DNA of 64,000 bases from Myxococcaceae bacterium JPH2. Its GTDB lineage: Bacteria > Myxococcota > Myxococcia > Myxococcales > Myxococcaceae. The translations under genes and the position numbers were made by a program. Below are positions 38,077-45,081 of this stretch, in pieces. Within the stretch, counting starts at the first letter, position 1; each line of letters starts with the position of its first letter. The notes beneath the pieces are model-generated. The model did not search any database, had not been told where the DNA came from, and saw only the letters and a program-made list of their open reading frames with translations. The stretch lies in NCBI GenBank assembly GCA_016458225.1, contig JAEMGR010000034.1, forward strand, positions 1 through 64,000, read 5' to 3'.

Positions 38077-38158
38077 TGGGCGAGGAGGGACTCGAACCCT
38101 CACACCTTGCGGTACCAGATCCTAAGTCTGGTGCGTCTACCAGTTTCGCCACCCGCCC
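38077..38158 (-). tRNA. tRNA-Leu (UAG)
   Basis: 82 nt. Acceptor GGGCGGG pairs with CTCGCCC (one G-U). The anticodon arm is CCAGA-cttagga-TCTGG with anticodon TAG. A variable arm of class II type and GGTTCGAGTCC in the T arm are present. CCA is not encoded. Last of the minus-strand tRNA series. Confidence 0.95.
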
Positions 38159-38261
38159 GACGGTCCCCGCGTGCGCTTGTCGTCTTACCGCGAAACACCG
38201 ACGCCAGGGCAGTCCTTCGCGCGACTCTGGCCCACGCGCGAACAGCGCGAGCCCAGTGCCG

Positions 38262-38300
38262 AAAAAAAACGGGGCCCCTTCATTGCTGAAGGGGCCCCGT
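38262..38300 (-). terminator. Strong intrinsic terminator after tRNA-Lys
   Basis: A 13-bp perfect stem CGGGGCCCCTTCA / TGAAGGGGCCCCG (38270-38299) with a four-base loop, followed on the minus strand by eight T residues (38262-38269). It lies three bases beyond the tRNA-Lys gene and separates it from tRNA-Leu. Confidence 0.9.
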
Positions 38301-38302
38301 GA

Positions 38303-38375
38303 TGAGAGCGGAGGGAATCGAACCCACAACCTATGGATTAAGAGTCCATTGCTCTGCCAATTGAGCTACGCTCCC
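38303..38375 (-). tRNA. tRNA-Lys (CUU)
   Basis: 73 nt. Acceptor GGGAGCG/CGCTCTC, D arm AGCTCAATTGGCAGAGC, anticodon arm TGGA-ctcttaa-TCCA with anticodon CTT, T arm GTGGGTTCGATTCCC. No encoded CCA. Confidence 0.96.
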
Positions 38376-38710
38376 GGACCTGCGCTCGGTGTGTCGCGTT
38401 CGCGACGTCCAAGTGGCGGCGTAACTACCGTGGCCTGTGCGCGCTGTCAAAGCGTTTTCGCACGTCCCTGCTTCATTCTTTCTGTTCGCGGCTGGACGGC
38501 CGAGTTCCGGCCTGGCTCCGCGCTGCCGCCCCGCGCACGTGAAGCCCCTGTCGGCATGGGCTGTTGCTCCTCGCCGCGGCCCGCGTTCCGTCCTCGGAGC
38601 AAGAGACGTCTCGCACCGAGAGCGAAGCGCGGGCGGCCCCAGCCACGAACGAGGCGGCGCCATGCGGGCGGACGGGGGTCGTCCGCCCTTTTCGAGCAGC
38701 AAGGCAGGAG
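38376..38710. other. Non-coding spacer between tRNA-Lys and bet
   Basis: 335 bp. I see no convincing gene. It contains the tRNA-Lys upstream region and, at its right end, a terminator-like hairpin in plus orientation. A promoter somewhere in this spacer would make either a short RNA ended by that hairpin or an attenuated bet transcript. Confidence 0.5.
38666..38692 (+). terminator. Terminator/attenuator hairpin immediately before bet
   Basis: A perfect 9-bp stem GGGCGGACG / CGTCCGCCC (38666-38674 with 38680-38688), loop GGGGT, followed directly by TTTT (38689-38692). It ends about 20 nt before the bet start codon, where it would stop most incoming plus-strand transcription. Confidence 0.6.
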
Positions 38711-38716
38711 ATGACC

Positions 38717-39739
38717 GTGACGGAAGTGAATGCGAAGACGGAGGCCGCGGTGGCCTCGAGCAATCCGTGGAGCCGGGAGCGCGTGGAGCTGATCAAGCGC
38801 ACCATCTGCCCCCGGGGCATTGGCGAGGATGAGTTCGCCCTCTTCATCGAGCAGTGCAAGCGCAGCGGGTTGGATCCGCTGCTCAAGGAGGCCTTCTGCG
38901 TGGCGCGCCGGCAGAACACCGGCACTCGCGAGCGGCCCAACTGGACGACCAAGTACGAGTTCCAGCCGTCCGAGGCCGGCATGCTCGCCCGGGCCGAGCG
39001 CTTCCCGGACTTCAAGGGCATCCAGGCGAGCGCGGTGTTCGCCGAGGATGAGATCATCGTCGACCAGGGCAAGGGCGAGGTGGTGCATCGCTTCAACCCG
39101 GCCAAGCGCAAGGGCGCGCTCGTTGGAGCGTGGTCGCGCGTGGTCCGCGACGCGAAGCTCCCTGTCGTGGTGTGGCTCGACTTCTCTGGATACGTGCAGC
39201 AGACGCCGCTGTGGGCGCGCATCCCCACCACGATGATCGAGAAGTGCGCCCGCGTGGCGGTGCTCCGCAAGGCGTATCCCGAGGCCTTCGGCGGCCTGTA
39301 CGTCCGTGAGGAGATGCCCGCCGACGAGTTTGAGTCACTGCACGACGAGCCCGCGCCCGCGTCGGGGACCTATGAAGTGCTCGGCGCGAAGCCGGGGCCA
39401 GTGAAGGCCTCCTTCTCTCCCCTGCCGCTCACGCCACCGACCCAGGATGAGGCCGAGGCCGCGCGACTCTCCGTGGACGTGCCGTTGGCGCCTGTAGCGG
39501 AGCGAACGAGTTCCGTCCTGGTCGCGTTCGGGCCACACAAGGGAAAGACGACCACGGAGCTGACGGACTCCGAGCTGACCGAGACCATCGATCTGGCGCA
39601 CGAGAAGCTGATGGAGCAACCCAAGGCACGCTGGGCCAAGGCGATGCGCGAGAACCTCACGGCCCTGGAGGCTGAGACAGAGCTGCGCTTCCACGGCCCC
39701 ACGCCGAAGAGCACCAGCGCGAGCGCACAGGGCGCCTGA
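38717..39739 (+). CDS. bet: Phage recombination protein Bet (RecT-superfamily single-strand annealing protein)
   Basis: 340 residues. The first half matches lambda Bet: ELIKRTICPRGIGEDEFALF, CKRSGLDPLLKEAF, TTKYEFQPSEAGML, PTTMIEKCARVAVLRKAYPE. Bet anneals complementary single strands during phage recombination. The C-terminal region (about 265-335) carries FGPHKGKTTTELTDSEL, resembling the small ExoX-like C-terminal domain that starts F-G-x-x-K-G-K. The GTG at 38717 has GGAG six bases upstream; the ATG at 38711 abuts GGAG and is less likely, though it is the alternative. No exonuclease, Gam or other phage gene is present; it is flanked by tRNA genes on the opposite strand. Confidence 0.85.
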   Translation: MTEVNAKTEAAVASSNPWSRERVELIKRTICPRGIGEDEFALFIEQCKRSGLDPLLKEAFCVARRQNTGTRERPNWTTKYEFQPSEAGMLARAERFPDFKGIQASAVFAEDEIIVDQGKGEVVHRFNPAKRKGALVGAWSRVVRDAKLPVVVWLDFSGYVQQTPLWARIPTTMIEKCARVAVLRKAYPEAFGGLYVREEMPADEFESLHDEPAPASGTYEVLGAKPGPVKASFSPLPLTPPTQDEAEAARLSVDVPLAPVAERTSSVLVAFGPHKGKTTTELTDSELTETIDLAHEKLMEQPKARWAKAMRENLTALEAETELRFHGPTPKSTSASAQGA

Positions 39740-39751
39740 GAAACGAAGCAC

Positions 39752-39789
39752 GGCCCTTCCCAGAGGAGCGCAATCTTCTGGGGAGGGCC
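39752..39789 (+). terminator. Hairpin downstream of bet
   Basis: A 13-bp stem GGCCCTTCCCAGA / TCTGGGGAGGGCC with one G-T pair and a 12-nt loop, 12 nt after the stop. No U-run, so a weak or factor-assisted terminator. Confidence 0.45.
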
Positions 39790-39951
39790 TGCGCGCGTGC
39801 CCCACCGTCGCGGGCCGGGAGCGAAGAAGGCACCTGGAGAAACGGAGCGCGGTGGGATTTCTGCGGCTGGTGTTGGGATGCTCGGTCAACTTCCGTTGAC
39901 GAGCGCTCGACCCACACCGGAGTCCCGAACCACATCCGGGACTTCGAGAAG

Positions 39952-40025
39952 CGCGCCCAGAGGGACTTGAACCCCCAACCCCTGGCTTCGAAGGCCAGTG
40001 CTCTATCCAGTTGAGCTATGGACGC
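39952..40025 (-). tRNA. tRNA-Arg (UCG)
   Basis: 74 nt. Acceptor GCGTCCA/TGGGCGC, anticodon arm CTGGC-cttcgaa-GCCAG with anticodon TCG, T arm GGGGGTTCAAGTCCC. No encoded CCA. Its 3' end faces the bet gene. Confidence 0.95.
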
Positions 40026-40046
40026 AGGGCAAGGCGGGCGAAACAG

Positions 40047-40121
40047 GGCGGCCAACCGGGATCGAACCGGTAACCTCCGGAGTCACAGTCCGGCGCTCTA
40101 ACCAGTTGAGCTATGGCCGCC
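40047..40121 (-). tRNA. tRNA-His (GUG)
   Basis: 75 nt including the extra 5' G (G-1) opposite C73, diagnostic of histidine tRNA. Anticodon arm CCGGA-ctgtgac-TCCGG with anticodon GTG; T arm ACCGGTTCGATCCCGGT. It lies 21 nt upstream of tRNA-Arg(UCG). Confidence 0.96.
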
Positions 40122-40559
40122 GTCACCACGAAAACGCGGGCTTCCCTACCTCGGAACCTGGGCCCGTTCAAGGTCCAAATGTGCGATCGCTGTCGCGCAT
40201 CGTTCGGATCCTTCGCGCGGAGCATCGCCTCTCCGCACAACCCCTTGGAATCCGATGGTTTTCTTGGGCTGAGCGAGGTCGTGCCCCATCCGCGGATGGC
40301 CATCGCCCATTCCGCCAAGGCACCGCCACGCGCATCAATGACGCCAGCGAGCGCCGCATCGCGGATGCAGGGAGAAGCCGACTCAATCGTCCCGCGCTAG
40401 CCACCAGTGCCTGGCCATGCGGCGCAGCCCGAGAACGAGCCGCTCGGGCTGCCGAGAGTCGAGGTCATCCGGCAGCTGACTGGAAGGAAGGGGTTGGGTC
40501 CTGCTCCCGCCCACAGAGGCGGGAGCAGTGTCCTCAAGAATCTTCGACGCCGGGTCGAG
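40122..40559. other. Non-coding spacer between tRNA-Arg(UCU) and tRNA-His
   Basis: 438 bp without a credible coding region. It holds an 8-bp hairpin (AGCCCGAG/CTCGGGCT, 40426-40433 with 40443-40450) and the 11-bp hairpin listed at 40501-40528. Nothing else recognisable. Confidence 0.6.
40501..40528 (-). terminator. Stable hairpin downstream of tRNA-Arg(UCU)
   Basis: Perfect 11-bp stem CTGCTCCCGCC / GGCGGGAGCAG with six-base loop, 32 nt beyond the tRNA on the minus strand. No U-run; could be a terminator or a processing element. Confidence 0.4.
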
Positions 40560-40633
40560 CGCCCCAGGCAGGACTCGAACCTGCGACCCCCGGCTTAGAA
40601 GGCCGGTGCTCTATCCAGCTGAGCTACTGGAGC
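40560..40633 (-). tRNA. tRNA-Arg (UCU)
   Basis: 74 nt. Acceptor GCTCCAG/CTGGGGC with one T-G pair, anticodon arm CCGGC-cttctaa-GCCGG with anticodon TCT, T arm GCAGGTTCGAGTCCTGC. No encoded CCA. Confidence 0.95.
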
Positions 40634-40672
40634 TGGCCGCGAAATCCCTCTTCGCTACGGCTTCACTTCAAA

Positions 40673-40746
<74 letters not shown>

Positions 40747-40758
40747 AGAAGTGCGGGC

Positions 40759-43063: not shown

Positions 43064-44122
43064 TCAGCCGATGACGTCAATCCCGGGACGTCCCGCCTGG
43101 ACCTCGCCGATGAGCGCCGCGTCCACGCCCGCCTTCTCCAGCGCCGTCAGCGCCTTGAGGGCATGGCGCGCCGGCACGCTGGCCAGCAGGCCGCCGTTGG
43201 TCTGCGCGTCCGCGAGCACCCACTGGATGGGCTCGGGCAGTCCCTCGGGGAAGCGCACCTTCTTCTTCACGTGGGCCAGGTTGGACTTGGTTCCTCCCGG
43301 CACCACGCCCTGCTCGGCCAGCGCGGGAACGCCCGCGATGAGCGGGATGCGCTCCAGGTCCAGCACCGCGCGAGCCTTGGCGCCCGTCATCATCTCCAGC
43401 AGGTGCCCCAACAGCCCGAAGCCCGTCACGTCCGTGAGCGCGTTCACCTTGAAGCGTCCGGACGCGAACACCTCGCCCGCCGCCTTGTTCAGCGTGGACA
43501 TCAGCGCCACCACGCGCCGGGTCATCTCGCGCGAGGCCTCGCCGCGCTTGATGGCCGTGGTCGCGATGCCCGAGCCCAGCGGCTTCGTCAGCAGCAGCAC
43601 GTCCCCCGGCTTCGCGCCCGCGTTGGTCAGCACCTTCTTGGGGTGGACCACGCCCGTGACGGCCATGCCGTACTTCGGCTCGGGGTCCCGGATGCTGTGG
43701 CCGCCGAGGATGGGGATGCCCGCCTCGTCCGCCTTGGACTGACCGCCCGCGAGGATGCGCGACAGGACCTTCATCGGCACGCCGTCCGGGAACCCGACGA
43801 GGTTGAGCGCGAACACGGGCTTAGCGCCCATGGCGTAGATGTCCGACAGCGCGTTCGCCGCGGCGATCGCACCAAACTGAAACGGGTCGTCCACCACGGG
43901 CGGGAAGAAGTCGACCGTCTCCACCACGGCCAGGCCGGGCGTGAGGCGATAGACGGCCGCATCGTCGTGGGTCGAGAAACCCACCAGCGCTTGAGGAGTC
44001 TTCACAGTCTTCAGGTGGCGCAGGACCTGCGCCAGATCCGCGGGCCGCAGCTTCGCAGCTCAACCCGCGCAGTGACTCAATTCGGTGAGGCGTTTGGGCC
44101 TCACCGGCTTCGCGTCCGCCAT
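43064..44122 (-). CDS. selD: Selenide, water dikinase SelD, selenocysteine-containing (UGA read-through)
   Basis: 352 residues if the TGA at 44062-44060 is read as selenocysteine 21. From the ATG at 44122 the frame encodes MADAKPVRPKRLTELSHCAG-U-AAKLRPADLAQVL, which matches the SelD N-terminus where the catalytic residue is Cys or Sec followed two residues later by the essential Lys. The remainder is typical SelD: VVETVDFFPPVVDDPFQFG, GGHSIRDPEPKYG, TDVTGFGLLGHLLEM. The enzyme makes selenophosphate from selenide and ATP for selenocysteine or selenouridine synthesis. A standard call would begin at the GTG at 44005 and lose the active site. The ATG lies 11 nt after the FHA-PATAN stop, a normal operon spacing. 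Confidence 0.85.
44017..44033 (-). promoter_or_regulatory. Candidate bacterial SECIS element in selD
   Basis: GGCGCAG-GTC-CTGCGCC, a perfect 7-bp hairpin in the coding strand starting 27 nt after the UGA, apical loop 34-36 nt after it and beginning with G. This is within the 16-37-nt window of the bacterial SECIS model. The GCAGGTC core resembles the apical stem-loop of E. coli fdhF SECIS. It would recruit SelB. Confidence 0.6.
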
Positions 44123-44133
44123 GATGCCGTCCC

Positions 44134-45081
44134 CTACTCCGCGCGCACGTAGTCGCGCTTGATGAGCTGCACCACGGCCTCGGCCGTCACCACGTCATCG
44201 CCATCCGAGTGGTCCAACACCCCGCTCAGCGAGCCGTGGTTGTGCACCAGCTGGAGCACGTCCATCAGCTCGGGCGTGAGCTCCTTCAGCGGCGCGGTGA
44301 GGGGCTGCGGAAGCCGCAGCGGCGAGGCCAGGGCCGGCAGCTGCGACTGGATGCGCTTGAACTCGTCGAGCTGGCGCAGGGCGTCCATGAGGAGCGCCTC
44401 GGTGGACGAGTCCAGCTCCACCATGAACTCCTGGCTGTCCGCGGCGCGCAGCTCGAAGTCGCCCTGCTCCCAGGTGACGATGCGGTTGAAGCTCTTCTGC
44501 GGCCCCAGGTTGTGGTTCTCGTCGATGACCGCGTAGTAGACGCGGCCCTGGCGCAGGTAGATCTTCCCTTCCTGCTGGTTCGTCACCACCAGCACGCCGT
44601 TCTTCTTGGACGTGTGGAAGAGCTGGAGCAGGTCCGGCAGGGGAATCTCTTCAATCTTCCCCGTCATCGAGCTGGCCTTGGTGGTGCGCGCGGCCTGGGC
44701 GGCGGCGGCCTCCTCCAGCTTCTTCATGGCCATGCCCTCGTCCACGCTGGCGCCCTCGGCGCCCTGGTGCACGAGCTTGAGGATGGACGTGCCGATGAGG
44801 ATGCGATCCCCTTCCTTCAGGCGCGCCTGCTTGACCTTCTCACCGTTGACGAAGGTCCCGTTGGTGGAGCCCAGGTCCTCGATGGTGATCTTCCCGTCGG
44901 AGAAGAGAATCTTCGCGTGCTTGCGCGAGACCATGTCCTCCACGAGGACCATGTCCAACTCGCTGGACCGCCCCACGACGATCTGCTTGTCCAACTTCAG
45001 AGGGAACTCTCCGCCCTGGTACTTCCCGGAGATGAACTTGAGGGCGTAGGACTTCGCCGCCGAACCGCTCGGAGTGCTCAC
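44134..45081 (-). CDS. FHA domain plus DUF4388 (PATAN) protein
   Basis: 315 residues from a GTG start. Residues about 15-105 form an FHA domain (VVGRSSELDMVL, VSRKHAKI, GSTNGTFVNG) that binds phosphothreonine. A DUF4388/PATAN domain follows (about 135-235: MTGKIEEIPLPDLLQLFHTSKKNG, in pieces), then a helical C-terminus. PATAN proteins in myxobacteria and other delta-group bacteria are tied to signalling, often with Ser/Thr kinases. It sits between the TPR gene (37 nt) and selD (11 nt). Confidence 0.87.
   Translation of the reverse strand: MSTPSGSAAKSYALKFISGKYQGGEFPLKLDKQIVVGRSSELDMVLVEDMVSRKHAKILFSDGKITIEDLGSTNGTFVNGEKVKQARLKEGDRILIGTSILKLVHQGAEGASVDEGMAMKKLEEAAAAQAARTTKASSMTGKIEEIPLPDLLQLFHTSKKNGVLVVTNQQEGKIYLRQGRVYYAVIDENHNLGPQKSFNRIVTWEQGDFELRAADSQEFMVELDSSTEALLMDALRQLDEFKRIQSQLPALASPLRLPQPLTAPLKELTPELMDVLQLVHNHGSLSGVLDHSDGDDVVTAEAVVQLIKRDYVRAE

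Follow-up and report, generated by a model that had tools for sequence, protein, structure and literature searches.

Does the stop codon at the catalytic position of this selD gene specify selenocysteine (Sec), or does it mark a broken gene? The locus lies within what we call here the window, the whole stretch of 64,000 nucleotides analysed from contig JAEMGR010000034.1 of Myxococcaceae bacterium JPH2, and occupies positions 43064 to 44122 of its minus strand. From the ATG at 44122 to position 43064, the frame encodes 352 residues followed by a terminal TGA, and its only interruption is a TGA at 44060-44062, codon 21, in the context HCAG-U-AAKL, where U is the predicted Sec. An earlier note, made from the sequence alone, had proposed that this ATG opens a continuous SelD N-terminus and that automatic callers would start the gene at an internal GTG. 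The first proposal was borne out, and the second holds for the plain table-11 ORF list, which starts selD at the GTG at 44005 and hence gives a truncated product of 313 residues (43064-44005, minus strand) that does not include the active-site loop. Two features support translation ahead of the TGA: a Shine-Dalgarno-like AGGGGA (44130-44135, minus strand), located 7 nt 5' of the ATG, and the 11 codons preceding the UGA, which show a total of 41 synonymous versus 9 non-synonymous codon differences in 11 mutually dependent comparisons. The upstream gene encodes a protein with FHA and DUF4388 domains (44134-45081, minus strand) and, because only 11 nt separate its stop codon from the ATG of selD, the two genes are probably co-transcribed. 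The same strand of the window also carries six tRNA genes (Leu, Lys, Arg, His, Arg, and Pro) in a span of 2.7 kb at positions 38077-40747.

The frame matches curated SelD models. Residues 11-320 of the protein align with positions 1-310 of the 311 in the NCBIfam selD equivalog model TIGR00476, with 393.2 bits (cut-off 125), and a further SelD model, NF002098, gives 357.2 bits against a cut-off of 299. In the phmmer alignment with the selenide, water dikinase chain 3u0o, which we take to be the SelD of Escherichia coli, U21 falls opposite Cys17 and K24 opposite Lys20, presumably the catalytic residues of that enzyme. This agrees with the earlier proposal that the TGA sits at the catalytic position, three residues before a conserved Lys. 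Both 3u0o and 2yye, the latter presumably the SelD of Aquifex, are matched almost from end to end (255.5 and 182 bits, respectively), but have a Cys where the window's SelD would have Sec21.

The same alternation between Sec and Cys is found within the family. A SelD match was present in 95 of the 96 Myxococcaceae genomes searched, and 91 genomes remain as the denominator once the five without an ortholog-grade match are subtracted (no match in G013; best E-values of 1e-5 to 2e-8 in G050, G084, G085, and G086). The catalytic codon is TGA in 29 of these 91 genomes, read directly in every case, and the other 62 are of the Cys type, with the codon or the residue read in 41 of them, always as Cys, and Cys deduced from the absence of an internal stop in the remaining 21. 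The active-site Cys of one of these genomes, G035, was missed by the site pattern and read separately. Outside the family, all six loci titled Anaeromyxobacter are of the TGA type. The UGA therefore occupies a redox-active position at which homologs carry Cys. One of the Cys-type loci (L214, G088:C625:6835-7866) has a TAG inside its frame, away from the active site, which may reflect a pseudogene, an error of assembly, or recoding.

The earlier note had also held that the organism possesses the Sec machinery, and that the absence of selB and tRNA-Sec would speak against a selenoprotein. All of the genes in question were found over their cut-offs in the window's genome (8.99 Mb in 144 contigs, 99.57% complete). 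The tRNA-Sec gene selC, with a UCA anticodon, lies at C55:521-615 (71.3 bits, gathering score 47). The selB gene is located at C5:535745-537655 (311.1 bits), and residues 1-636 of its product align with the selenocysteine-specific elongation factor chain 5lzb, while selA is found at C11:11737-13062 (550.2 bits) and has as its best structure matches chains named L-seryl-tRNA(Sec) selenium transferase. The tRNA-Sec search returned seven weaker matches below the cut-off, and the three of these scanned with ARAGORN (L002-L004) were called as tRNA-Ser, tRNA-Arg, and tRNA-Leu only. With selD on contig C34, the four sel genes are spread over four contigs, and their joint expression is assumed. Among the 29 Sec-type genomes, selB (E <= 1e-40) was detected in 28, tRNA-Sec (>60 bits) in 27, both in 26, and at least one of them in all 29; the genomes missing one of the two matches (G082, G048, and G083) are drafts with a completeness of 82-90%. 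In one family genome, G007, a pair of matches exceeds the gathering score for tRNA-Sec, at C1:5204985-5205079 and C1:5182915-5183007 (73.2 and 59.5 bits, respectively), with some 22 kb between them.

Downstream of the UGA, at a distance of 26 nt, the transcript could form the apical hairpin of a predicted bacterial SECIS element (44017-44033, minus strand), with the sequence GGCGCAG-GUC-CUGCGCC and one additional U-A pair outside it (44034/44016). Taken on its own, the window's sequence is not exceptional, as the 53-nt fold has a z of -1.23 and 11% of synonymous recodings reach seven pairs, so that the hairpin is not significant on the single sequence and its support comes from comparison across relatives. 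For this comparison, the pairs were read without gaps at a fixed offset, taken from the window's sequence before counting in the relatives. In a set of 94 loci that come almost entirely from Myxococcota, all 33 distinct TGA-type SelD sequences retain the six outer pairs, versus 2 of 35 distinct Cys-type ones. When distant loci are added, these figures become 43 of 46 and 2 of 65, bearing in mind that the Sec-type sequences are related by descent and that the site pattern picked up 38 of the 55 distant loci, the other 17 being dropped from the count. The three Sec-type sequences without the six outer pairs at the fixed offset are L051, L092, and L097, and two Cys-type ones, L125 and L223, still form all seven pairs by means of other letters. 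The stem shows paired changes: at the fourth pair, the 46 distinct Sec-type sequences have G-C (36), U-A (4), G-U (3), A-U (1), C-G (1), and C-C (1). RNAalifold folds the Sec set into this stem and predicts no structure for the Cys set; between +26 and +49, the folding energy averages -12.5 kcal/mol for the former versus -4.8 kcal/mol for the latter. Such conservation together with the Sec state, and decay in the Cys type, is what would be expected of a bacterial SECIS element after the loss of Sec.

These observations have to be weighed against two other ways of explaining the stop codon. The UGA could be a nonsense mutation or a sequencing error, leaving either a pseudogene or a gene from which only the 313-residue product is made. 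The plain ORF list returns exactly that product, and a SelD truncated in this way would retain its two AIRS domains; it would, however, have neither the catalytic residue nor Lys24, and no Shine-Dalgarno-like stretch was seen ahead of the GTG on inspection of the sequence. Decay of the gene also sits badly with the mostly synonymous differences in the codons ahead of the UGA, with the presence of tRNA-Sec, SelB, and SelA, and with the recurrence of the same TGA in the 29 family genomes and the six Anaeromyxobacter loci. As the family genomes comprise, besides the window's own, a second one of the same genus (97% identical) and 27 more, the TGA is not attributable to chance or to a sequencing error, in line with the argument of the earlier note against random nonsense, and we consider this explanation hardly credible. 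Only marginally better are the prospects of near-cognate read-through, in which a Trp or Cys tRNA would decode the UGA and no Sec would be inserted. Misreading at a low rate is, as a matter of general knowledge, possible at any UGA, but the genome has a tRNA-Sec with the UCA anticodon along with SelA and SelB, the selD gene itself terminates with TGA, and the hairpin tracks the TGA state of the gene, all of which make this second explanation very improbable.

We therefore regard it as almost certain that selD encodes a Sec-containing selenophosphate synthetase, whose UGA would be read as Sec by means of SelB and the hairpin. According to this model, the ribosome would start at the ATG at 44122 and reach the UGA at codon 21, where Sec-tRNA-Sec would be delivered by SelB attached to the hairpin that lies in frame at 44017-44033. 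Sec21 would thus be placed in the N-terminal selenium-binding loop, adjoining Lys24. The resulting SelD would make selenophosphate, which SelA would use to produce more Sec-tRNA, so that a Sec-type SelD would need its own product. The read-through of the UGA, the selenium in the protein, and the activity of SelD are predicted here from the sequence.

The distribution of both SelD types over the family raises the question of the direction of change. A SelD tree was built by a quick method, using only the part of the protein that begins at residue 17 after the active site, with 82 distinct rows and a Sec-type outgroup that comprised one groundwater MAG along with three Anaeromyxobacter loci. It requires at least four changes between Sec and Cys, two of them forced by its starred branches, although many of its forks are open and 16 rows fill less than half of the columns, all of the Cys type among those listed. 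Because the outgroup is of the Sec type, the simplest reading would be that Sec is ancestral and was changed to Cys about four times, namely in the clade with MAGs L028-L032, in G035-G038, in G031-G034, and in Myxococcus plus Corallococcus. The window's genus would therefore keep the older form of SelD. The Cys-type SelD proteins of Myxococcus and Corallococcus (genus groups g5 and g19) are about 82-86% identical to the window's SelD, and these members of the same family have kept selB and selC as the window's genome has; in contrast to the window's selD, theirs have TGC in place of TGA, where the codon was read, and a decayed hairpin.

Retention of the machinery is common in the Cys type, as selB and tRNA-Sec are both present in 58 of the 62 genomes, some of the selB matches being partial. 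The only SelD-bearing genome without either of them, at thresholds of E <= 1e-40 for selB and >60 bits for tRNA-Sec, is G035 (L219 and L328; 11 Mb in two contigs), which has apparently lost the Sec machinery while keeping a Cys-type SelD. Several other selenoprotein families occur in the relatives. A SelW-like gene (PF10262, E <= 1e-5) was found in 74 of the 96 family genomes, each with one match containing one TGA, and in neither of the two genomes of the window's genus. The 12 SelW-like loci fetched all fit the motif, and the sequence CxxU itself was seen in 11 of them. Two examples, L335 (G094) and L340 (G091), read CTAUGY and similar, and L335 has about 76 residues with its Sec near residue 12. 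Annotation can easily miss such genes. FdhA with a TGA (E <= 1e-150) is limited to six draft genomes (G010, G012, G045, G046, G047, and G087). Searches in 15 genomes yielded at least five Sec peroxiredoxins, L315 and L316 (G063), L317 (G042), L318 (G006), and L319 (G073), with the TGA at the likely position of the peroxidatic Cys (TPGUT or TGGUT) and hairpins after the UGA. A SelW-like TGA gene is present in 41 Cys-SelD genomes in which selB and selC were detected but no FdhA of the Sec type (E <= 1e-150). Twelve genomes with selB and tRNA-Sec (G016, G021, G023, G029, G031-G034, G036-G038, and G049) show no TGA-type SelD, SelW, or FdhA at the thresholds used, which makes a further selenoprotein in the family likely and gives reason to expect one more in the window's genome.

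The expectation of the earlier note that the organism probably has other selenoproteins holds for these relatives, which have SelW-like proteins, peroxiredoxins, and FdhA, and found no counterpart in the window's genome in the searches made. Its one strong FdhA match (C43:74487-76490, 778.6 bits) has no stop and carries Cys at the place of Sec (RVCHAPS). The AhpC-TSA family gave 21 matches at E <= 0.01, with no stop in any of the 12 listed, and the ortholog of one of the relatives' Sec peroxiredoxins is of the Cys type (TSGCTKEL). Eight SelW-like candidates (PF10262) were scored, none reaching E <= 1e-5, and contig C14 ends at 134 kb in the search of the SelW locus. For SelU (YbbB; TIGR03167), which through the selenouridine trait would be another customer of SelD, 47 candidates were scored and none reached E <= 0.001, with a control that matched 7 of 14 known genomes and exceeded the cut-off in one. 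GrdB (PF07355) had no match at E <= 1e-8 in the 96 genomes, nor in any control, so that this negative carries no weight. The family searches covered FdhA, AhpC-TSA, SelW, SelU, and GrdB; the thioredoxin, glutaredoxin, DsbA, AhpD, MsrA, ArsS, and HdrA/GlpC families, as well as the selenium-cofactor genes YqeB/YqeC, lie outside their scope.

The window's genome was also scanned without reference to known families. The first two scans (1.66 Mb) were discarded, since the candidates shown from them (60 of 88 and 32 of 32) were, by eye, mostly neighbouring genes in the same frame or antisense frames, and did not include SelD, whose upstream coding score is below the threshold of the first scan. The candidate near position 746375 of contig C1 (TATC-U-SNGAVY) was rejected, being antisense to a frame of 527 residues and matching no Pfam family. 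A third scan drew on coding bias together with a hairpin and a residue motif over 1.97 Mb, 22% of the 8.99 Mb, and returned 12 candidates with SelD in first place, by design, as the thresholds were set after seeing SelD; the other 11 were, by eye, gene junctions or the like. The same thresholds are passed by 48 of 53 selenoprotein genes of the relatives (SelD 30/30, peroxiredoxin 5/5, FdhA 5/6, and SelW 8/12). When conserved TGA codons were sought in the surroundings of selB, selC, and selD, only SelD was convincing among the best 40 rows per set, the others being by eye ordinary stops, out-of-frame matches, or tRNA artefacts. SelD is thus the only selenoprotein found so far in the window's genome, and others may exist in families outside these searches or beyond the 22% scanned without bias.

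Sec-type SelD is already well known, and the window's gene is another example of it. Mariotti et al. in 2015 (PMC4561486) state that, among the SelDs they detected across 223 reference genomes, 19% contain Sec, that selenoprotein genes are usually misannotated, and that one change from Cys to Sec is documented, in Pasteurellales. Zhang et al. in 2006 (PMC1794560) report that each of 75 Sec-decoding genomes has FdhA or SelD as a selenoprotein, that SelD accounts for 20% of the Sec-to-Cys conversions seen, that several species with YbbB have SelD as their single selenoprotein, and that SelD is among the 11 selenoproteins of Anaeromyxobacter dehalogenans. That entry is the one myxobacterial case met with; a search by title and abstract, limited to one literature collection, returned no paper treating myxobacterial selenoproteins, and the stem "myxococc" is absent from the main texts of PMC1794560, PMC5029168, PMC4561486, PMC13188914, and PMC12013277. 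The Sec-type SelD of Anaeromyxobacter shares with the window's gene the UGA at the N-terminal catalytic codon, in all six loci, and the downstream hairpin. Compared with A. dehalogenans, SelD itself is essentially no different, but the window's genome has no other selenoprotein found and its sel genes lie on four contigs.

For annotation, the consequence is that a plain ORF caller would cut short 29 of the family's 91 SelD genes. The 41 Cys-SelD genomes with a SelW-like TGA gene do not fit the "FdhA or SelD" statement of 2006 (PMC1794560). As for the window's genus, we put forward only tentatively, and think it rather doubtful, that SelD is its sole selenoprotein, with the machinery kept just for SelD, without a selenouridine pathway, in a lineage part-way to losing Sec; if so, the loss of SelW would already lie behind it, as would the change to the Cys type of one or more redoxins and perhaps of FdhA. 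With at least four changes between Sec and Cys, a Sec outgroup, decay of the SECIS element in the Cys type, and the machinery kept in 58 of 62 genomes, Myxococcaceae represent a usable natural experiment, and they raise a concrete question: what retains the Sec machinery in genomes without a TGA-type SelD, SelW, or FdhA, and in the window's genus.
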